Below the pieces are notes generated by a model. The model searched no databases, was not told the DNA's origin, and saw only the letters and a program-made list of their open reading frames with translations. Of a DNA stretch of 41,498 nucleotides, positions 1,119 through 8,260 are shown piece by piece. Position numbers and translations under genes: made by a program. The stretch lies in the NCBI GenBank assembly GCA_938015925.1, contig CALLVY010000014.1, positions 1-41,498 on the forward strand. Direction: 5' to 3'. Each line of letters begins with the position of its first letter. The first letter of the stretch is position 1. The stretch comes from an uncultured Saprospiraceae bacterium. GTDB lineage: Bacteria > Bacteroidota > Bacteroidia > Chitinophagales > Saprospiraceae.

Positions 1119-2120
1119 TTAACATTCCGTCATAAAATCGATACGAGTAGGCAAACAACCGACTTCATCCGTGTTGTGAGAAATCGAAAAAGAATAAGAA
1201 GTACATGGACTCAGGTTATTAAGTGCCAATGGGCTAGTCACTGGATTCAAATAGACTATTTCTCCCGTTTCATTATTTACCAAAAAGGCAGAAAAAGCAC
1301 CACAGACTTTTTTGTTGTGTCCGAAAGAAATTGAAGCACTCGTTTTAGTAATTGTTTTGACTTGTAAATAATCAACGGGGCGACAAGGGCCAGTACATTC
1401 GCGGCAAGGCTTACAGGAAGTCGTAAAAGCATTCAACTTAGGTAGGGAAGTACAAACATCTGTTACATGAGAAATACCAATATCATATGTGGTACAGGCT
1501 TGCAGATTTGTTAAAACCACAGGGCTCGATACAGGATCAATGACCATTGTTGGTCCACCTTCATTATTTTTGTAAAACAAGGAAAAAGTACCACACATCG
1601 GCTCATTAAATCCAAATTCCACGGATGTCGAGCAACCATTTATATTTTTAAAATTAATAAAGTCAGGTTGTTGACATGGGTTGGTACAAATACTACATCC
1701 TTCGCAAGGCGTTTTAAAAGTTTCGCTGATGTATTCAGGAGGGCAATTTTCTCCGACATGTGCTACCCTAATTTCAAACTTGGCACAAGAGGCTAATTCT
1801 TCTATAAAGAAAAAGTCTTCTTCTTGCACAAGAGTTGTATTTTCTCCTGTTTCCAAGTTGAATACTTCGGCGACATAAAACCCACATTCAGGAGGTGTGT
1901 TTTCAAAATCATATCCAAGTTCAATGGCTACAGAACAATCTTCTTGCACCTGAACATCCATAAAATCGGGGCTATTACAAGGGCAAAACCTTTCTTTACC
2001 CCGCAATTCCATTTTATCTATGGCTTCCTTTTCCAGGGCAATCATTTCCCGGTCTTTGGCACAGGAAAAAAGGAGTAAGAGAAAAAGTAAAGGACTTAGT
2101 CTTAACATAATTTTTCGCAT
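1119..2120 (-). CDS. Cysteine-rich lipoprotein with three fibronectin-III-like repeats
   Basis: I place the start at the ATG at 2120, giving 333 residues, because it puts a lipoprotein signal at the N-terminus: MRKIMLRL, a leucine-rich core and a lipobox ending LFSC with Cys20. The frame stays open upstream to 2381, but that extension has no signal and is read through a strong hairpin, so I reject it. A second ATG at 2108 is also possible. The mature protein has three repeats of about 90 residues (roughly 47-137, 146-236 and 246-333). Each has a CxxPD..(I/V) opening, a central CG(F/T/A)F-type strand, a loop of the type NL(S/Q)(P/A)CTSY, and a closing F.T.C strand. This matches the FN3 layout, with extra cysteines that could form one or two disulfides per repeat. 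Likely attached to the cell envelope, surface or periplasmic. No enzymatic motif is seen. It lies on the same strand as the sigma/anti-sigma pair. Confidence 0.82.
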   Translation of the reverse strand: MRKIMLRLSPLLFLLLLFSCAKDREMIALEKEAIDKMELRGKERFCPCNSPDFMDVQVQEDCSVAIELGYDFENTPPECGFYVAEVFNLETGENTTLVQEEDFFFIEELASCAKFEIRVAHVGENCPPEYISETFKTPCEGCSICTNPCQQPDFINFKNINGCSTSVEFGFNEPMCGTFSLFYKNNEGGPTMVIDPVSSPVVLTNLQACTTYDIGISHVTDVCTSLPKLNAFTTSCKPCRECTGPCRPVDYLQVKTITKTSASISFGHNKKVCGAFSAFLVNNETGEIVYLNPVTSPLALNNLSPCTSYSFSISHNTDEVGCLPTRIDFMTEC

Positions 2121-2470
2121 AATTTTCAATTTTATTCTGGTTAAAAAAATAAGCGCAAGAGCGACCATTGTCCTGCTCTTGCGACTTATCAATACTGACA
2201 AATAAATCATAGGAAAAGCCATAATAGGATAAGGGCTATCGGAGGATAGTCGTCCTAAAAGGCTTTTAAATTTTTTCAAGAATTTGTCAGTAATAGAAAT
2301 AAAACTATTCGAAAACAGATTTATATTTTTTGATGAGGCGAAGGGATTTAAGCAAGTGCCTAAAAGTAACACCCTATTCAATTAGTACCCTTCAAAAAAG
2401 AAAGGTAACCGAAAAGAGAAATATAATAGTAGAAATATTTTAATGGAGGAGTATCAAAAAAGAGGAATGG
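2121..2470 (-). other. 350-bp gap between anti-sigma and lipoprotein genes
   Basis: No convincing coding region. The frame that overlaps 2121-2381 on the minus strand is an upstream extension of the lipoprotein frame without a signal or ribosome site. The gap holds the terminator-like hairpin at 2141-2189 and a small hairpin (CTATC at 2236-2240, GATAG at 2245-2249). Any promoter for the lipoprotein gene must lie upstream of the terminator hairpin, in about 2190-2470; I cannot pick a clear Bacteroidota -33/-7 pair. Confidence 0.5.
2141..2189 (-). terminator. Intrinsic terminator hairpin just upstream of the lipoprotein start (possible attenuator)
   Basis: CGCAAGAGC (2154-2162) pairs with GCTCTTGCG (2175-2183), and ATAAG (2149-2153) pairs with CTTAT (2185-2189) across one bulged A. 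This makes 14 pairs around a 12-nt loop. Read on the minus strand the stem is followed directly by seven U residues (complement of 2142-2148), the classic intrinsic terminator form. Its 3' end is only about 20 bases before the lipoprotein ATG at 2120, leaving no room for a promoter in between. It either ends the sigma/anti-sigma transcript or controls read-through into the lipoprotein gene. Confidence 0.75.
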
Positions 2471-3232
2471 TTATAGAGTCTTCAACTGCTCCAATATTTT
2501 CTGGGCAGCTTCGCGCTTGGCGGCATTAGGAGAGTTGGCAAGGGTTTCTAAAAAGGGGATGGCTTTTGCACTTTGGTTCAATTGTAAATAAAATAGTGCG
2601 CTATACCAATGGGCGAGGTCTGATAAAAAAGGGTCTTTATCTTTGATGATTTTTTGGAGTGGCAGAAAAGCTTTTTCCTTTTCTCCAATTTCAAAACGAG
2701 AGATCGCCAGGGCTAGTATTTTTTGAGAATGCTCCCCTTCTTCTGAAATCAGTGCTTCCAAAATAGGTATAGCTTCTGCAAATCTTCGCTGCCGATAAAA
2801 CTTAGCGGCCTCTCCAATCCTTTTATCCTCTGTCTCATTACGCATAGCGAGCATGAGTTCATAGGGTTCATAATTTGTAGCAAAAATTTGCTGAGGTTCA
2901 TTGGCGGGAAGTGGCCAAGACCACCAGGCGACTAAGCCCAAGAATAGCAAAGAGGCGGCGGCAACAAAAGGACGCCAATCCATTTTTTTGACTTTTGTTT
3001 TTGGCCTTGGAGTGTTGATTACTTTTTGGTGAATCTCTTTCAATTCTGCTTTTAATTCAATGCGTCCCCCTTCCGTCATTCCACGAAGAATTCGTTCTTG
3101 CGAATGCAATGCTTCTGTCAAAGCAATATTTTGTTCCAACTCTTGTTGAAAAGCGATGACTTCTTTTTCTTCTAGGTGACCAAGAATGTAATCATCAATC
3201 TGTGCGAAAAATTGCTTTTTTTCTTTCATCAT
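2471..3232 (-). CDS. Anti-sigma-factor-like single-pass membrane protein with TPR-like tail
   Basis: 253 residues starting MMKEKKQFF; the first ATG directly follows the TAA of the sigma-factor gene, so the two are almost certainly translated together. Residues 12-45 (DDYILGHLEEKEVIAFQQ and following) match the N-terminal helical segment common to Bacteroidota anti-sigma factors (IxxYLxGxLSxEE..F type), without the zinc-binding His/Cys residues of the ZAS subgroup. One membrane helix lies at about 87-107 after a basic stretch and is Trp-rich. From about 139 to 250 the protein shows helix pairs with TPR-like residues (AAKFYRQRRFAEAIPILEAL, then AHWYSALFYLQLNQSAKAI). The expected topology is a cytoplasmic sigma-binding N-terminus and a periplasmic TPR region. 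Expected role: hold the neighbouring sigma factor until an envelope signal arrives. The role is inferred from sequence pattern and gene order. Confidence 0.8.
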   Translation of the reverse strand: MMKEKKQFFAQIDDYILGHLEEKEVIAFQQELEQNIALTEALHSQERILRGMTEGGRIELKAELKEIHQKVINTPRPKTKVKKMDWRPFVAAASLLFLGLVAWWSWPLPANEPQQIFATNYEPYELMLAMRNETEDKRIGEAAKFYRQRRFAEAIPILEALISEEGEHSQKILALAISRFEIGEKEKAFLPLQKIIKDKDPFLSDLAHWYSALFYLQLNQSAKAIPFLETLANSPNAAKREAAQKILEQLKTL

Positions 3233-3820
3233 TTATTCCCTGTAAAATGGTTTAAAATGGGGGATGCGATGTGCCAGTTCTTTTAATTTACCTAAGCAAC
3301 GATTTTTTTTATTCTTTGCCACCTGTTCATTGGCAAAACCCAAAGTCTTTGCAATTTCTTTCATCCGCTTGCGCTCATAATAGTAGAGCAAGAGTACTTT
3401 TTTGCAATCCTCTCCGATTTGATCCAAAAGCGAAGCCAGTTGTTTAGACTCTTCCTCTGTAATGATCAGGTCCAAAACCAAATCTTCCTTTTGTGGAAAA
3501 TCTTCTTCCTTCCCGTAGATTTCTCTTTGCGAAGAAGCCTTGCGTAAACGCTTAATCCAGATATTTTTGCAAATAGCAAATAAATAGGTACGGATGGAAC
3601 TTGTACCTTTAAAAGTCCCTTTGACCACCTGTTCATAAAAAGCCATCAAACCATCCTGAAAAATATCTTCCGCATCCTCCGGCTTTCCTTTGTTCTTTTT
3701 GATATAAGTCGAAATTGCTAAGAAGTTTTCTTGATAAATACTCGTAAGAGCTTTGTTTCTTACTTTTTTATCTAGTGAACTCAACATTTCCAGCAAATGA
3801 TTATCAGTAAATTCTGACAT
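3233..3820 (-). CDS. ECF-type RNA polymerase sigma-70 factor
   Basis: I use the ATG at 3820, giving 195 residues (MSEFTDNHLL). The frame is open to 3898, but the extra 26 residues lack family similarity. Region 2 is clear at about 45-95: PEDAEDIFQDGLMAFYEQ, then a TYLFAICKNIWIKRLRK stretch, the core-binding and -10 recognition part. Region 4 is at about 130-182: LLDQIGEDCKKVLLLYYY, MKEIAKTLGFANEQVAKNKK and CLGKLKEL, a helix-turn-helix for the -35 element. There is no region 1 or 3, and the length is normal for the ECF group. It directs RNA polymerase to a small regulon. The gene is divergent from the T9SS cargo gene at 4182 and is followed with no spacer by its probable anti-sigma factor. The regulon is unknown; the flanking secreted-protein and CHAT genes are candidates by position only. 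Confidence 0.93.
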   Translation of the reverse strand: MSEFTDNHLLEMLSSLDKKVRNKALTSIYQENFLAISTYIKKNKGKPEDAEDIFQDGLMAFYEQVVKGTFKGTSSIRTYLFAICKNIWIKRLRKASSQREIYGKEEDFPQKEDLVLDLIITEEESKQLASLLDQIGEDCKKVLLLYYYERKRMKEIAKTLGFANEQVAKNKKNRCLGKLKELAHRIPHFKPFYRE

Positions 3821-4181
3821 AGAGATCAATTGGTTAGTACCTATTTTTTGTAAAAGGTAATCATTAGAAGTGCTAAAAATAAAAACTCTACCGCACAATT
3901 CACTTAATTTATAAGTATTTGCGCCTTTCTTATTTTTATTTTTTAAATTTAATCTGCAAGTCCCATTTTTTTTAATTTTTCATTGGTTACCTTTTTAACC
4001 CCTAAGGTACTAACAGTTTAAAGCCTTTTTCTAGCTTTTAACTCCTTCTCTATTTAAAGTGACAATTGACTTTTTCTGTATTACAGTCAGCAAAAGGTTA
4101 AAATTACAAAACTGATATCCAATCTGCTCTACATTTAGCAGCGATTGGTTTTTTTTACAAACCACTTAAAAGTAAATAACC
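3821..4181. promoter_or_regulatory. Divergent intergenic region between the sigma factor and T9SS cargo genes
   Basis: 361 bp, very AT-rich, no coding region. It must hold the promoters for both the minus-strand sigma/anti-sigma genes and the plus-strand cargo gene. A short perfect palindrome CTGTA-T-TACAG lies at 4076-4086, about 96 bp before the cargo ATG, and a second inverted repeat (GGTTA / TAACC with a 6-nt spacer) lies near 3985-4000. Either could be an operator. I see no confident Bacteroidota TTTG / TAnnTTTG promoter, consistent with possible use of an alternative sigma factor. Confidence 0.45.
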
Positions 4182-5237
4182 ATGAAAGTTAAAGACCTTT
4201 CTCTCTTTTCTGTTTTATTGATGTTTTTATTTGTCTTGGGTATGGCGGTGGAAGCACAAGCTCAGCCTCCGAGTCAAGGAACAGCTTGTTCAGGGGTATC
4301 TCGACAATCTACTGTTTTCAAACTGTGTGATTCTGGAACTAGTTATAGTGGTAGACCTGCTACAGGTTGTCCTGATGAAACTATTGCAGTAGTTTTTGAA
4401 TCTCAGTATTGCACAACTCCAATGATACCACTTGCTGTTTATTGCGTAAATCTAGAGCAATATATTGATTACTCCGGTGGTAAGAAACCATTGGTCTGGC
4501 CTACTGATCTTGATCCAGTTCATTTACAATATCAAGATGTGAATGGATCGGGAATAGTAACCCCTGCGATTACGTCTTGGGAATCCCTGGGTGATTATGA
4601 TATTCATGGTGTCTCTTATTCTGTATATAAAGGGGAAGTGATGATTCCTTTATCAAATTTAATGAATATTAATATTTGCTCCAAAGACCCTAATCAGCAA
4701 ACCCTTTTTAATCTATCTGTTGAATTAGTAACATTTGATGAAAATGGAAATTTGGGAACTTTCCCCCTTTCCGATTATGGAGGTCCCGATGATATTTTCA
4801 GTTGTAAGGTCTTTACAGAAAATTGTAATTTATGCTCAGATGCGGGATCAGACTGCACTCCACGCCCTCCCATTGATTCTCTATCAATCTGCTTTGATTG
4901 TAGTGATTGTGAAGTACCCAACCCTGAACAACCTAACGATCCCGAGGGGCGAGCTGATAATCGAATGGCTAGCACGTTTAATGCGAATCAAGTTAGTATC
5001 AATCCCAATCCATTCTCTGATTTTCTGGAATATAAATATACTTCAAAATCAGAGGAACAGATCACCGTTAACCTAGTTTCGATAGACGGCAGCTTAGTTT
5101 TACAAGAAATCAAAAAAGTAGGTATCGGAGAAAACAACTTCATCCTGGACACTAGCCATTTAGTTCAAGGACTTTATTTTCTACAAATCAATAGTGGTTC
5201 TGACCGAATCCTACAACGCTTAACAAAAATGGATTAA
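4182..5237 (+). CDS. Secreted protein with type IX secretion C-terminal sorting domain
   Basis: 351 residues. The N-terminus MKVKDLSLFSVLLMFLFVLG followed by MAVEAQAQ is a clear signal peptide with cleavage near residue 28. The last 80 residues (about 272-351) start with INPNPF and contain VNLVSIDGSLV, a GLYFLQI strand and a final LTKMD. This matches the T9SS type A sorting domain (Por secretion / TIGR04183 type), which is removed or used for surface anchoring after export. The central part (about 30-210) has several cysteines and no domain I recognise. Residues about 213-258 form a Cys- and acid-rich linker with CSDAGSDC and CFDCSDCEVP. The gene is the first on the plus strand after the divergent sigma-factor region and is closed by a strong terminator. 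The substrate or partner is unknown. Export by T9SS is well supported. Confidence 0.9.
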   Translation: MKVKDLSLFSVLLMFLFVLGMAVEAQAQPPSQGTACSGVSRQSTVFKLCDSGTSYSGRPATGCPDETIAVVFESQYCTTPMIPLAVYCVNLEQYIDYSGGKKPLVWPTDLDPVHLQYQDVNGSGIVTPAITSWESLGDYDIHGVSYSVYKGEVMIPLSNLMNINICSKDPNQQTLFNLSVELVTFDENGNLGTFPLSDYGGPDDIFSCKVFTENCNLCSDAGSDCTPRPPIDSLSICFDCSDCEVPNPEQPNDPEGRADNRMASTFNANQVSINPNPFSDFLEYKYTSKSEEQITVNLVSIDGSLVLQEIKKVGIGENNFILDTSHLVQGLYFLQINSGSDRILQRLTKMD

Positions 5238-5252
5238 ACCAACTACCTTGAT

Positions 5253-5286
5253 AAAAAAAGAGGAATGATTCTATTCCTCTTTTTTT
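5253..5286 (+). terminator. Intrinsic terminator after the T9SS cargo gene
   Basis: Perfect 14-bp stem, AAAAAAAGAGGAAT (5253-5266) with its complement at 5273-5286 ending in seven T, and a 6-nt loop. It lies 15 bp after the stop at 5237. The A-run on the 5' side makes it bidirectional in form, but only the plus-strand gene ends here. The CHAT gene that starts at 5372 therefore probably has its own promoter in the ~85 bp that follow. Confidence 0.88.
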
Positions 5287-5371
5287 ATCTTCGTTTTTCA
5301 ATAAACCTAAATTGGTAGAAGGAAGCCAAAGGTTTACAAAGTAATTAAGATAACTTTTCTTGTTATTTACT

Positions 5372-8260
5372 ATGAGAACAATTGCTTTTAATTTATTAAT
5401 TTTCTCTGTTTTTCTTCCCCTCCTTATTTATGGGCAAGATTCATTGTCTACTAAAATCGACTTCGTTGGTAAGGCAGAGCATTTATTTTATACAAATCTC
5501 GACAGTTCGATTTATTACTTCCAAAAAGGTTTGGATTATTATCCGGGCATTGAAGATTGGGAAAATTACGTCGCCTGCCACAATGCACTGACTTCTGCTT
5601 TTGGACAAAAAGGAAATATCAATCAAAGTTATGCGCATGCATTAATAGCCTTTGCTTCGGCAGAAAAACATCTAGACAAAAACAACAACACGGCCTATGG
5701 GAGTGCGCTAAACAACCTCGCTATTTTCAATCGACGAAAAGGCGATTATGAAAAGGCCATGCCATTATACAAAAGTGCTTTAGAAATTGAACGAACCTCT
5801 GAATCTGGAAAACTGGCTGATGAACTGGCCATTCTCAAAAACCTAGGTAGTCTTTTTTTTGAAACTGGAGATTATTCGGAGAGTAAGAAATATTATTCTC
5901 AGGCAATCAACAAAGGTTTAGAGCACCTGGAAACGTCTGATCCTATGATCACTTCCAGTTATTTGGAATTGGCTGAACTTTACAATACCATTGGACAAAG
6001 AGATACCGCTTATATTTTGTACCAAAAAGTCTTACAAGAAATAACTCAACACTCTTTGAATGATATACGTACCAAGAATCGAATGGTAACGATCCATTTA
6101 AATCTTGGTGATTTTTTCTGGCAACAAAAGAAAGAGGAATTATCAAAAAAACACATTCATAAAGCCTTGCGATTTTCTCAAAAACACCTGAACAAAGCCC
6201 CATTAGATGCTTATCTACTTTTGGGAAAATGGGCCAAGCATCAAAAAAAATTCGACTTAGCCATTCAACACTTTGAGCAAGCGCTACTAATCAATCAAAA
6301 GAAGAACAAAACCCTTGGTAAATCTACAGAGACGGGTATGATTTATTATCAGCTAGCCAGTACTTATTTTGAACAAGGAGATTTAAAAAATAGTCTACAA
6401 CATTTTCAAAACAGTTTAGCGCAATATTCCAAGAAATTTTCTCCAGCCAATGACTTTCAAAACCCTGCGCTTTCTGATCTACCAAACGATCAATATATTC
6501 TAAAAACATTCCTTGGTAAAGCCAATACCCTGTTCCAAATTTATCATCGTGATAAAAACATTGAAACACTACTCGCCGCCAAAGAAACCTACCAATTAAC
6601 CATTCAATTACTCAACAAATTGCGGCAAAGTTATCATGGTATAGGTTCAAAAGAAATCCTGGCAGAAAATGTCTTGCCTATTTTTGAAGGCGCCTTACAA
6701 TGTTATTTTGAACTACAAAAAACACAAGCCAGTGAATCGCTTATCAACGAAGCTTTTCAAATCGCCGAAAACAGTAAAGCCATTCTCCTTCTGGAATCCA
6801 TTAATGAGAATTCTGCTTTGGGAATTGCAGGTATTTCTGACCAATTATTAGAGGAAGAAAAAAGTTTAAAAGGACAAATCATCTACCATCAAAAACAATT
6901 GATCTCGACCCCCGACACGGCTCACGAAAAAATCCAAACGCTGGAAAAAGGACTTTTTGAATTAGAGCAAAAACACCAAGAGCTTCTACTGCATTTTGAA
7001 GAAAACTATCCCAATTATCATCAATTAAAATACAACACCTCCATCGTCCATATTGAGGAGATCAGAAAAAAATTAAAACCCAATGAAAGTGCTTTGGTAG
7101 AATATTTTGTAGGAGAAAAAAACCTGTACATCTTTTGTATCACGACCCAAACAGCTCATTTTATTCAACTCGACAAAACACCGGATTTGAATCAAAAGGT
7201 AGAAGACATTCGAAATTTATTGATTCATCCTCCTGCTATCAAAACGGCGGAAAAAGATTTTGAGCAATTTACGCAATCTGCTCACGCCCTTTATCAACAA
7301 CTGATTGCTCCGACCAGACTGGAGGAAAGCATTTACCAAATCATCATCGTACCAGATGATCTACTGGCATATATTCCTTTCGAAATCTTGCTCTCTAAAT
7401 TACCAAAGAATCAAAACATTGATTATCTGCCCAACAATCTTTCCTATTTGCTCAATGACTTCCAAATAAGCTATAATTATTCCGCCACTCTTTTTGCCCG
7501 AGAAAATAGCAACACCCAACAAGCCAAGCATGATTTCATCGGTTTTGCACCAAGTTTCGGAGAACCCAAAAATGCAAATGCGTCAAGAAATTCCTTTCGA
7601 AACTGTACCCAGGAGGATTTGTATCCTTTGATTTGCAATAAGGAAGAAGTCGAACAAATCAGTAAAATTTTCAATGGGGCTGCCATCACTGGTTCGCAGG
7701 CCAATAAGGCCCTATTTGCGGAAAGCATTCAAGATTATCGAATTGCTCATTTTGCCACCCATTCTTGCCTCGACGACCAAAACCCCATGCTCAATAAGAT
7801 CTTCCTTGCCGATGGCTACCTTTCCAATTTTGACTTATATAACCTGGAACTCCAAACCGAACTAGCCGTACTCAGCGCCTGTAATACCGGCAGTGGTCAG
7901 CTTCGCCGTGGAGAAGGCGTCATGAGCTTGTCCAGAGGTTTTATGCATGCAGGCTGTCCGAGTGTATTGATGAGTTTGTGGTCGGTAGAAGATTGTACGA
8001 CTTCTGCGATTATGAACAAGTACTACCAAGGCATCAAAGCAGGGCAAACCAAGGATTTCGCTCTACAAGAATCCAAAAAATTCTATTTACAAGAGGCCAC
8101 CAAACTGGCTTCTCATCCCTTTTATTGGGCTCCTTTTGTACAATTTGGAAAAATAGAAGCCATGGATTTTCAAAGTACCTGGTTGCCAGAAAATCTTGCT
8201 TTTGGAGCCTTCGCTTTTGGAGCCTTTTTGTTGGCGCTTGTTTATTGGAGGCGGCATTAA
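5372..8260 (+). CDS. Exported TPR-CHAT (caspase-like) protein with C-terminal membrane anchor
   Basis: 962 residues from the ATG at 5372; an in-frame TTG at 5360 would only add four residues before the signal. MRTIAFNLLIFSVFLPLLIY followed by GQ is a signal peptide. Helix-pair repeats of TPR type fill about 75-355 (for example ALNNLAIFNRRKGDYEKAMP, LGSLFFETGDYSESKKYYSQ, YYQLASTYFEQGDLKNSLQH). A charged helical stretch follows at about 480-555, then the CHAT domain at about 563-930. Both catalytic motifs are intact: HFATHS with His797 and LSACNTG with Cys837, 40 residues apart as in the family. After WAPFVQFGK comes a hydrophobic helix at about 940-958 and a WRRH tail. Signal peptide plus C-terminal helix with a basic tail predicts the TPR and CHAT parts in the periplasm, held in the inner membrane. 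CHAT proteins are caspase/separase-related cysteine peptidases; the target here is unknown. Neighbouring sigma/anti-sigma and T9SS genes suggest an envelope-signalling context. Confidence 0.92.
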   Translation: MRTIAFNLLIFSVFLPLLIYGQDSLSTKIDFVGKAEHLFYTNLDSSIYYFQKGLDYYPGIEDWENYVACHNALTSAFGQKGNINQSYAHALIAFASAEKHLDKNNNTAYGSALNNLAIFNRRKGDYEKAMPLYKSALEIERTSESGKLADELAILKNLGSLFFETGDYSESKKYYSQAINKGLEHLETSDPMITSSYLELAELYNTIGQRDTAYILYQKVLQEITQHSLNDIRTKNRMVTIHLNLGDFFWQQKKEELSKKHIHKALRFSQKHLNKAPLDAYLLLGKWAKHQKKFDLAIQHFEQALLINQKKNKTLGKSTETGMIYYQLASTYFEQGDLKNSLQHFQNSLAQYSKKFSPANDFQNPALSDLPNDQYILKTFLGKANTLFQIYHRDKNIETLLAAKETYQLTIQLLNKLRQSYHGIGSKEILAENVLPIFEGALQCYFELQKTQASESLINEAFQIAENSKAILLLESINENSALGIAGISDQLLEEEKSLKGQIIYHQKQLISTPDTAHEKIQTLEKGLFELEQKHQELLLHFEENYPNYHQLKYNTSIVHIEEIRKKLKPNESALVEYFVGEKNLYIFCITTQTAHFIQLDKTPDLNQKVEDIRNLLIHPPAIKTAEKDFEQFTQSAHALYQQLIAPTRLEESIYQIIIVPDDLLAYIPFEILLSKLPKNQNIDYLPNNLSYLLNDFQISYNYSATLFARENSNTQQAKHDFIGFAPSFGEPKNANASRNSFRNCTQEDLYPLICNKEEVEQISKIFNGAAITGSQANKALFAESIQDYRIAHFATHSCLDDQNPMLNKIFLADGYLSNFDLYNLELQTELAVLSACNTGSGQLRRGEGVMSLSRGFMHAGCPSVLMSLWSVEDCTTSAIMNKYYQGIKAGQTKDFALQESKKFYLQEATKLASHPFYWAPFVQFGKIEAMDFQSTWLPENLAFGAFAFGAFLLALVYWRRH

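Follow-up and report, generated by a model that had tools for sequence, protein, structure and literature searches.

Gene content of the locus

The window analysed here, a 41,498-nucleotide stretch of contig CALLVY010000014.1 from the genome of an uncultured Saprospiraceae bacterium (assembly GCA_938015925.1), carries a module in which an extracytoplasmic function (ECF) sigma factor, a membrane-bound anti-sigma-like protein and an exported protein combining tetratricopeptide repeats (TPR) with a CHAT peptidase domain are encoded together, and for which a sigma/anti-sigma/CHAT circuit is well supported. On the minus strand, the sigma gene (ATG 3820 to 3233) is followed directly by the anti-sigma-like gene (3232 to 2471), and the gene of a type IX secretion system (T9SS) cargo (4182–5237) and the TPR-CHAT gene (ATG 5372 to 8260) lie divergently from this pair on the plus strand. 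The initial annotation of this DNA had described the same four genes at these positions, and both the open reading frames (ORFs) and the domain matches agree with it. The source genome has a size of 7.5 Mb in 905 contigs and is 78% complete, so that all regulon counts given below are minima. The features of the module and its surroundings are as follows.

3233–3820, minus strand: ECF sigma factor gene, 195 residues from ATG 3820; the ORF reaches TTG 3898
2471–3232, minus strand: anti-sigma-like protein gene, 253 residues, one transmembrane (TM) segment and a TPR-like tail
2825–2872, minus strand: linker of the anti-sigma-like protein, candidate cleavage region (residues 121–136; Arg131 codon at 2840–2842)
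5372–8260, plus strand: exported TPR-CHAT protein with a C-terminal TM anchor, from ATG 5372; the ORF begins at TTG 5360
7760–7882, plus strand: catalytic pair, His801 (7760–7762) and Cys841 (7880–7882) in the 966-residue numbering
4182–5237, plus strand: exported T9SS type A cargo, 351 residues
3835–3862, minus strand: promoter-like site before the sigma gene, GATTACC-N15-GTACTA, ending about 15 nt ahead of the ATG
3985–4012, plus strand: promoter-like site before the cargo-CHAT unit, GGTTACC-N15-GTACTA
2383–2410, minus strand: promoter-like site before the lipoprotein-like gene and downstream of the anti-sigma gene, GGTTACC-N15-GTACTA
1119–2120, minus strand: lipoprotein-like gene with a weak fn3 match; ATG 2120 is followed by a lipoprotein-type signal
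5250–5289, plus strand: terminator-like hairpin between the cargo and CHAT genes, 18 pairs followed by a T-rich tail

Recurrence of the module

The source genome contains 17 CHAT and 43 sigma matches, and paralogous sigma/anti-sigma/CHAT modules recur in it at loci L010 (two on a single contig, within about 15 kb), L015 and L016, with more divergent ones at L012, L013 and L021 (the anti-sigma of L021 was called by position only). At L019 the sigma gene stands at the contig start and the anti-sigma gene falls off the contig, and at L020 the anti-sigma gene was whole in the profile search. Five further contigs of this genome, each shorter than 10 kb, carry an exported-type CHAT gene and no such sigma gene (L009, L011, L014, L017 and L018; the CHAT gene of L011 is cut). 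The nearest paralogue of the window CHAT protein, 45–46% identical, is that of L014, which starts near a contig end; its partner sigma/anti-sigma pair is probably located on contig C688 (L163), since both carry the same promoter variant.

The initial annotation had proposed a search for co-occurrence in related genomes and had named CHAT homologues never found near the sigma/anti-sigma pair as the result that would speak against it; the opposite was observed, with strong linkage across the phylum. In the source and 29 related genomes, for which 150 listed rows each of sigma and CHAT matches were compared, 71 of the 150 CHAT rows among the matches listed have a module-type sigma gene within 8 kb (8 of the 71 in the source genome), against 4.1 expected from uniform placement. 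Also among the matches listed, a CHAT gene is near 24 of the 30 best sigma matches and near 3 of 30 in the weakest bin. A set of 79 named loci was found by CHAT similarity, nearly all of them from Bacteroidota by title (including Saprospirales, Aquimarina, Bacteroidales, Prolixibacter and Cytophagales) and two from other phyla; 39 of them, one a KSB1 locus, hold a module-type sigma gene, and many are cut by contig ends. Across 98 other genomes of the phylum, a CHAT domain was located no more than 9 kb from 31 of 40 full-length anti-sigma matches (those spanning 165 model positions or more), the 31 being distributed over 18 genomes and the 40 being all such rows outside the source genome among the matches listed. 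An anti-sigma match is near 33 of the 87 CHAT rows of this sample; the anti-sigma matches in it are minima, at most 27 candidates having been scored per genome.

For closer comparison, 83 modules were collected, those of G005, G015, G017, G028 and G001 having been chosen for sigma genes near CHAT genes; the set comprises 38 divergent, 30 convergent and 15 one-strand arrangements, proportions that do not reflect prevalence. The set includes duplicates (L061 and L203 have the same sequence, and L072 and L077 are nearly identical), which were removed for the promoter counts, leaving 36 divergent modules, and retained for the cargo-slot count of 38 divergent modules and for the topology counts over 79 CHAT proteins. 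Most of the convergent modules have their anti-sigma gene tail to tail with CHAT. Of the 38 divergent modules, 15, including all eight of Aquimarina, have no gene of at least 120 codons separating sigma from CHAT; the constant core is therefore formed by the sigma, anti-sigma and CHAT genes. Pairwise distances within genomes are correlated between the partners, with pooled r values of 0.45 for CHAT and anti-sigma, 0.51 for CHAT and sigma, and 0.59 for sigma and anti-sigma, none of which was reached in 2000 permutations; for the CHAT/anti-sigma pair, r was 0.92 in the source genome and 0.66 in G017.

At one locus, L209 (G095:C116, 2–7855), a sigma/anti-sigma pair without CHAT is accompanied by divergent genes for exported Peptidase_C14 caspases, a Trypsin_2 protein and DUF4384 proteins, and all three C14 matches of that genome (E 1e-10) fall within about 10 kb there. 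This single clear case among eight loci inspected is suggestive of another caspase-fold protease replacing CHAT. Equally suggestive, a comparison of match tables placed C14 genes near sigma and CHAT in G000:C106, G018:C92 and G016:C2. The first of these is L021, a 7.8 kb contig of the source genome with sigma, anti-sigma and CHAT genes and two weak C14 matches.

The sigma factor and the anti-sigma-like protein

The sigma factor scored 84.5 bits with the ECF model TIGR02937 (cut-off 42.9), which places it among ECF sigma factors; Sigma70_r2 was above the Pfam cut-off and r4_2 slightly under it. ATG 3820 is a likelier start for it than the TTG at 3898, because the match to the sigma model begins at 3820 and a promoter-like site occupies 3835–3862. 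A FecI/FecR pair was ruled out, as the sigma factor scored 75.9 bits with TIGR02985 (cut-off 126.4) and its partner had no FecR match.

A single TM segment is predicted in the anti-sigma-like protein at residues 90–108 (helix 87–105 in the AlphaFold2 model, mean predicted local distance difference test score (pLDDT) 89.0). The model consists of N-terminal helices (2–73), the TM helix, a linker (121–136) and TPR-like helices (137–251). The TPR tail is just under the Pfam cut-offs (TPR_6, 23.4 versus 26.3 bits), and a profile of 31 rows matches solved TPR proteins. The match to the anti-sigma hidden Markov model NF052375 is weak (26.4 bits, cut-off 100); the one-TM topology and the position beside the sigma gene fit membrane anti-sigma factors, sigma binding being putative.

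The linker is non-helical in the AlphaFold2 model and sits just outside the membrane. Its Arg131 is conserved at 90% or more in model A5, which was built from anti-sigmas found near CHAT genes, belongs to the seven near-invariant positions of the 31-row alignment, and has an equivalent in 69 of 79 module anti-sigmas. We propose this linker as a candidate cleavage region and the Arg as a possible mark of the cut. A strict pattern around the Arg fits 35 of 80 anti-sigmas (0.8 expected in shuffles), so that we put forward no more than the Arg as a general feature.

The TPR-CHAT protease

The window protein has a CHAT domain (PF12770, E 2.1e-51, 175.5 bits, cut-off 24), together with TPRs, an N-terminal hydrophobic signal and a C-terminal TM segment. 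The catalytic His and Cys are intact, as had been reported earlier; the numbers 797 and 837 assigned to them were counted from ATG 5372 and correspond to His801 and Cys841 in the 966-residue ORF. Each residue is kept in 78 of 79 module CHAT proteins, and proteolytic activity is predicted. A crude hydrophobicity test was positive for a signal in 75 of these 79 proteins and for a C-terminal TM segment in 64, and one TM segment was found in 81 of the 83 module anti-sigmas; judged by these predicted topologies, the protease and the anti-sigma tail most likely share the periplasm. These genomes encode many TPR-CHAT proteins, and for most of them no target is known to have been assigned.

The best Foldseek match of the AlphaFold2 model (pLDDT 88.9) was Csx29 in its Csx30-bound complex (8eey_B, E 3.9e-16, TMq 0.43), followed by other Craspase and separase chains. 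VIA-align gave Z 30.6 for Csx29, with 636 residues aligned at a root-mean-square deviation of 10.4 Å, and Z up to 26.9 for separase. TPR-only proteins score as high as Csx29 over the TPR half of the model, and it is therefore the match through the CHAT half that matters. On the basis of the model, a Csx29/separase-like fold of the window protein is supported. Separase is known for cutting its substrates after Arg. The transmembrane anti-sigma DdvA (PDB 8rw5 and 8rot), presumably from Myxococcus, was also aligned, at low TM-scores of 0.24 and 0.26; this alignment is to the CHAT protein and not to the anti-sigma-like protein, and we know of no link between DdvA and CHAT proteins.

According to the available part of the published description, Csx29 is a TPR-CHAT protein that cuts the sigma inhibitor Csx30 in type III-E CRISPR systems, relieving inhibition of an ECF sigma factor (PMC10028731). 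The cut lies in a flexible loop of Csx30, and the same text stresses the size of the loop over single residues (PMC10028731).

Promoter motif

Three sites in the genome, all in the window, agree exactly with the ECF-like promoter motif TTACCTTT-N12-GTACTA; they are located before the sigma gene, the cargo-CHAT unit and the lipoprotein-like gene. The motif was derived from these sites, so that their own match holds by construction. The related GGTTACC-N15-GTACTA occurs without mismatch only twice in the 7.5 Mb, both times in the window, and has four copies with one mismatch, one of which is about 15 nt before the sigma ATG; at up to two mismatches it gave 90 matches versus 362 for the reversed pattern. 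Among the eight one-mismatch copies of TTACCTTT-N12-GTACTA, three occur in other modules (C688, C772 and C845). A one-mismatch site in C617 lies inside a coding ORF and was taken as chance. The weight of the motif rests on its triple occurrence within 1.7 kb, the lack of other exact copies and the paralogous matches.

The k-mers AAGGTAAC/GTTACCTT and TTACCTTT emerged unprompted among the most enriched in the named loci. In these loci, TTACCTT is present upstream of 13 of 40 sigma ORFs (p 2e-7) and 11 of 45 CHAT genes accompanied by sigma (p 3e-5), compared with 1 of 45 CHAT genes without sigma, 3 of 44 anti-sigma ORFs and 40 of 792 other ORFs. In the 36 non-redundant divergent modules it precedes both the sigma gene and the CHAT unit in 14 (4 in the source genome, from which the motif came, and 10 elsewhere) and the CHAT unit in 24, the control rates being 31 and 64 of 622 ORFs, which are high because the control ORFs include cargo genes. 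In the 30 convergent modules it was found before no CHAT unit and two sigma genes. No promoter common to all layouts was found, the motif being present before 0 of 30 convergent and 0 of 14 same-strand CHAT units, where the paired test also yielded nothing. A looser k-mer test of the source genome alone was not significant for CHAT units (p 0.18). The promoter reading relies on the TTACCTT counts in named loci, the non-redundant module counts and the genome-wide motif copies. The shared motif, as a set of predicted sites, suggests that the module regulates itself and adds evidence for one circuit.

The TTACCTTT element recurs at the same spacing with a -10 sequence particular to each module, GTACTA in the window, GAATA in L016 and ACATA in L010. 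With -10 sequences that differ among several paralogous modules, these may operate as parallel channels within one cell.

The lipoprotein-like gene at 1119–2120, whose fn3 match (E 1.6e-4) is under the cut-off, is likely a third target of the sigma factor. In the presumed sister module, L163:1654–4646(-), an 852-residue exported protein is likewise encoded downstream of the anti-sigma gene with its own promoter copy.

The T9SS cargo and the hairpin before CHAT

The cargo protein has a hydrophobic stretch at its N terminus and matches Por_Secre_tail (PF18962, 41.7 bits, cut-off 27, E 1.5e-10) and TIGR04183 (34.5 bits, cut-off 23), as expected of a T9SS type A substrate. Por_Secre_tail was found in all 10 sampled cargo-slot genes, and comparison of 31 cargo-slot proteins without signal and tail placed 20 in one group, which includes the window cargo, seven in a second group and four alone. 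The cargo as an invariant partner is ruled out by the 15 divergent modules without an intervening gene; a cargo gene elsewhere in those genomes is possible. The T9SS cargo could be a signal or an output.

Several modules depart from the single-cargo arrangement. Two similar cargo genes stand in tandem in one module (L016:4062–6149(+)), and two genes in the cargo slot were also seen in L055, L056, L072, L077 and L095. The slot of L183 (5147–6973(+)) is taken by a gene whose lipoprotein-like product contains a thiol-activated cytolysin domain (PF01289, E 3.4e-36). At L063:2130–6680(-), on the same strand as sigma, a gene located between sigma and CHAT encodes a 1516-residue protein that combines a cohesin domain with a T9SS tail scoring slightly under the cut-off.

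The hairpin at 5250–5289 has a predicted energy of -21.6 kcal/mol (z -6.6). A general scan for terminators was no richer than shuffled sequences (6 versus 6.6), and the hairpin is supported by its fold energy rather than by that scan. Terminator-like hairpins were found in 6 of 22 modules having a gene upstream of CHAT. Read from the sequence, this arrangement suggests unequal expression of the cargo and protease genes.

Elsewhere in the window, 16196–41216 on the minus strand is occupied by three giant ORFs of 2522, 1867 and 3773 residues with SprB repeats and PKD/Ig-like domains, two of them with the CHU_C T9SS signal; these encode large surface proteins.

Proposed mechanism and alternative explanations

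The gene set, the predicted topology, the conserved linkage, the promoter sites shared in divergent modules and the Csx29/separase-like fold support a common circuit; sigma binding by the anti-sigma-like protein, the direction of signalling, the anti-sigma as substrate, the position of cleavage and the trigger are inferred. We prefer to read the module as an envelope relay independent of CRISPR: its protease would act on the anti-sigma encoded with it and, in divergent modules, would itself be expressed under the control of the same sigma factor. We put the probability of this reading at roughly one half. In the resting state, the membrane anti-sigma would hold the ECF sigma factor, with its TPR tail in the periplasm, and the TPR-CHAT protease, once exported, would be anchored so as to face this compartment as well. 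A signal, perhaps the T9SS cargo of the module or another envelope product, would be read by the TPR superhelix and activate the His/Cys site, whereupon CHAT would cut the anti-sigma in its short linker just beyond the membrane. As the anti-sigma was degraded further, it would set free the sigma factor, which would transcribe its own operon from TTACCTTT-type promoters and so amplify its own synthesis; in divergent modules it would also drive the cargo-CHAT unit and, in the window, one further exported gene. Cleavage of the anti-sigma by CHAT is plausible in view of the Csx29/Csx30 precedent, the fold and the conserved Arg of the linker, with about even odds in our analysis. Cleavage of the cargo, which the initial annotation had offered as the other possible activity, is a less probable core function, since the cargo slot is empty in 15 of the 38 divergent modules.

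A number of observations weigh against the relay. No such partner was found near 79 of the 150 listed CHAT rows and 54 of the 87 rows in the phylum sample; contig ends explain only part of these cases, and CHAT proteins therefore have other roles too. The CHAT proteins of named loci without a sigma gene are alike in topology, with a signal in 34 of 37, so that export alone is no marker of the module. The CHAT/anti-sigma distance correlation was not significant in three of the five genomes (r 0.26 in G005, 0.11 in G015 and -0.01 in G028). Nine anti-sigma loci lack CHAT, and seven of the eight inspected contain no caspase-like gene; nothing in CHAT co-varies clearly with the ten modules whose anti-sigma has no Arg. 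With up to one mismatch, TTACCTTT-N12-GTACTA has 11 matches in the genome and the reversed control pattern 10, a count that does not tell how many of the latter are exact; it is therefore the placement of the motif, and not its number, that constitutes evidence. In the modules of relatives alone, TTACCTTT is weak (p 0.04 for sigma genes and 0.18 for CHAT units) and de novo k-mers fail to recover the motif. A paired test against swapped modules was passed at 0.05 by 5 of the 38 divergent modules, with 1.9 expected, and is weakened because the swapped modules share the motif. Since a strong hairpin separates it from the cargo gene, the window CHAT gene may be transcribed only by read-through and at a low level. 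Finally, a gene controlled by the sigma factor can equally be an output, and a shared promoter is expected in both cases.

The strongest alternative, which we regard as rather unlikely, makes CHAT an output of the pathway: another site-1 protease or a signal-induced change in the TPR tail would free the sigma factor, which would drive synthesis of the surface cargo and of CHAT, and CHAT would trim the cargo, further proteins of the envelope or foreign ones. ECF sigma factors often drive genes for exported proteins, the sigma promoter motif is common to CHAT in many divergent modules, and the cargo recurs in these, as its tail domain and its predominant group indicate. However, a pure output role does not explain the divergent modules without a slot gene, and convergent modules keep CHAT beside the anti-sigma gene with no shared motif before any of the 30 CHAT units. 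The balance is tipped towards CHAT as the protease of the anti-sigma because convergent and cargo-less modules alike retain CHAT with the anti-sigma gene.

Negative feedback is appreciably less probable than an output role. CHAT would then be made after release of the sigma factor and would reset the circuit by removing the signal protein or some other activator. In divergent modules CHAT does appear to be under the control of the sigma factor, and weak read-through expression behind the hairpin would suit a late brake, but in the system of the nearest structural relative the cut removes a sigma inhibitor and so activates the sigma factor, as far as the accessible text describes it (PMC10028731). 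That the genes are mere neighbours with no direct mechanistic link, drawn from TPR-CHAT, ECF and cargo families that are all expanded in these large genomes, is close to refuted: such families are numerous here and about half of the CHAT genes lie elsewhere, but the excess of linked pairs among the matches listed, the phylum-wide linkage and the sharing of promoters within modules stand against it.

Comparison with known systems

The initial annotation had regarded the locus as a candidate for an undescribed system, which is only partly right: relief of ECF sigma inhibition by a TPR-CHAT protein has been published for type III-E CRISPR (PMC10028731), and CHAT proteins are mentioned near ECF54 (PMC8999054), in the portions of these papers accessible to us. 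The openly licensed full-text literature, covered in part, yielded the papers on the CRISPR relay and related structures and the single remark on ECF54, the remainder dealing with other sigma systems or unrelated subjects.

Membership in a type III-E CRISPR system is not supported, with no Cas7-11 effector seen among the 13 window proteins scanned and no array in the window. PADLOC, whose coverage of Cas7-11 was not checked, identified no Cas protein among the 13 window proteins scanned; its matches were to Cas8b (E 0.006) and to a TPR model, both in the repeats of the CHAT protein. No direct repeats of at least 22 bases within 120 bases, and thus no CRISPR-like repeats, were found in the window. 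A defence system was likewise set aside, since PADLOC gave nothing convincing for these 13 proteins.

DegS and RseP act on the membrane anti-sigma RseA, which has a periplasmic part, by site-1/site-2 proteolysis, with cutting outside the membrane. The system is named as a case of anti-sigma proteolysis in the available text on the CRISPR relay (PMC10028731). The window module resembles it in having a membrane anti-sigma with a periplasmic part, for which release by a cut outside the membrane is expected. Unlike DegS, a PDZ serine protease, the candidate site-1 protease here is a separase/caspase-fold CHAT protein encoded with its target.

In Porphyromonas, the signal that runs through PorA-PorXY-SigP comes from a protein with a T9SS C-terminal domain and reaches an ECF sigma factor, which regulates its own gene, according to the accessible portion of the source (PMC7712824). 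A T9SS-tail protein could similarly feed the ECF pathway here; PorA-PorXY-SigP, unlike the window module, employs a two-component system, and that portion describes no CHAT protease or one-pass TPR anti-sigma (PMC7712824). CHAT proteins are conserved in the gene context of ECF54, for which the excerpt at hand proposes proteolytic control without an anti-sigma (PMC8999054). The window shares with it a CHAT protein in the context of a sigma gene and differs in the adjoining anti-sigma-like gene, whose sigma binding is putative; ECF54 was compared by its description only (PMC8999054).

The closest parallel is the type III-E CASP system (Craspase, consisting of Cas7-11/Csx29, with Csx30 and CASP-sigma), as represented in the available text (PMC10028731). 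In both, the gene of a TPR-CHAT protease accompanies those of an ECF sigma factor and of its inhibitor, a candidate one in the window, the protease folds match, and predicted sigma sites occur in the promoters of the locus itself (PMC10028731). In contrast to CASP, the window protease carries both a signal peptide and a membrane anchor, the candidate inhibitor spans the membrane once and ends in a TPR tail, and modules of this type are present in many copies per genome. Csx30 was absent from the 60 listed of 170 PDB sequence matches of the anti-sigma and from its 50 listed fold matches, both filled by TPR proteins; no listed fold match reached E 0.001, so that this is evidence neither way. Because the CASP relay provides a precedent and the same three roles are predicted here at the envelope, CHAT is favoured as the site-1 protease.

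The conserved partner pair and the promoter motif make TPR-CHAT proteins testable as signalling proteases with a likely substrate. If the relay exists, bacterial separase/caspase-like enzymes would be linked to transmembrane control of transcription outside CRISPR, Bacteroidota would gain a family of parallel envelope-sensing channels, and an origin of the CRISPR-associated Csx29 relay would be suggested. As a tentative extension, one could hypothesise that Bacteroidota possess a CRISPR-free, periplasmic counterpart of Csx29/Csx30/CASP-sigma, in which separase-fold proteases cut membrane anti-sigmas next to a conserved Arg outside the membrane. The genomes richest in such modules would run about a dozen parallel channels at most, of which some would use a -10 sequence of their own and some would read out a dedicated T9SS surface protein. 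One could further hypothesise that the CRISPR-linked system is one soluble offshoot of this wider family.

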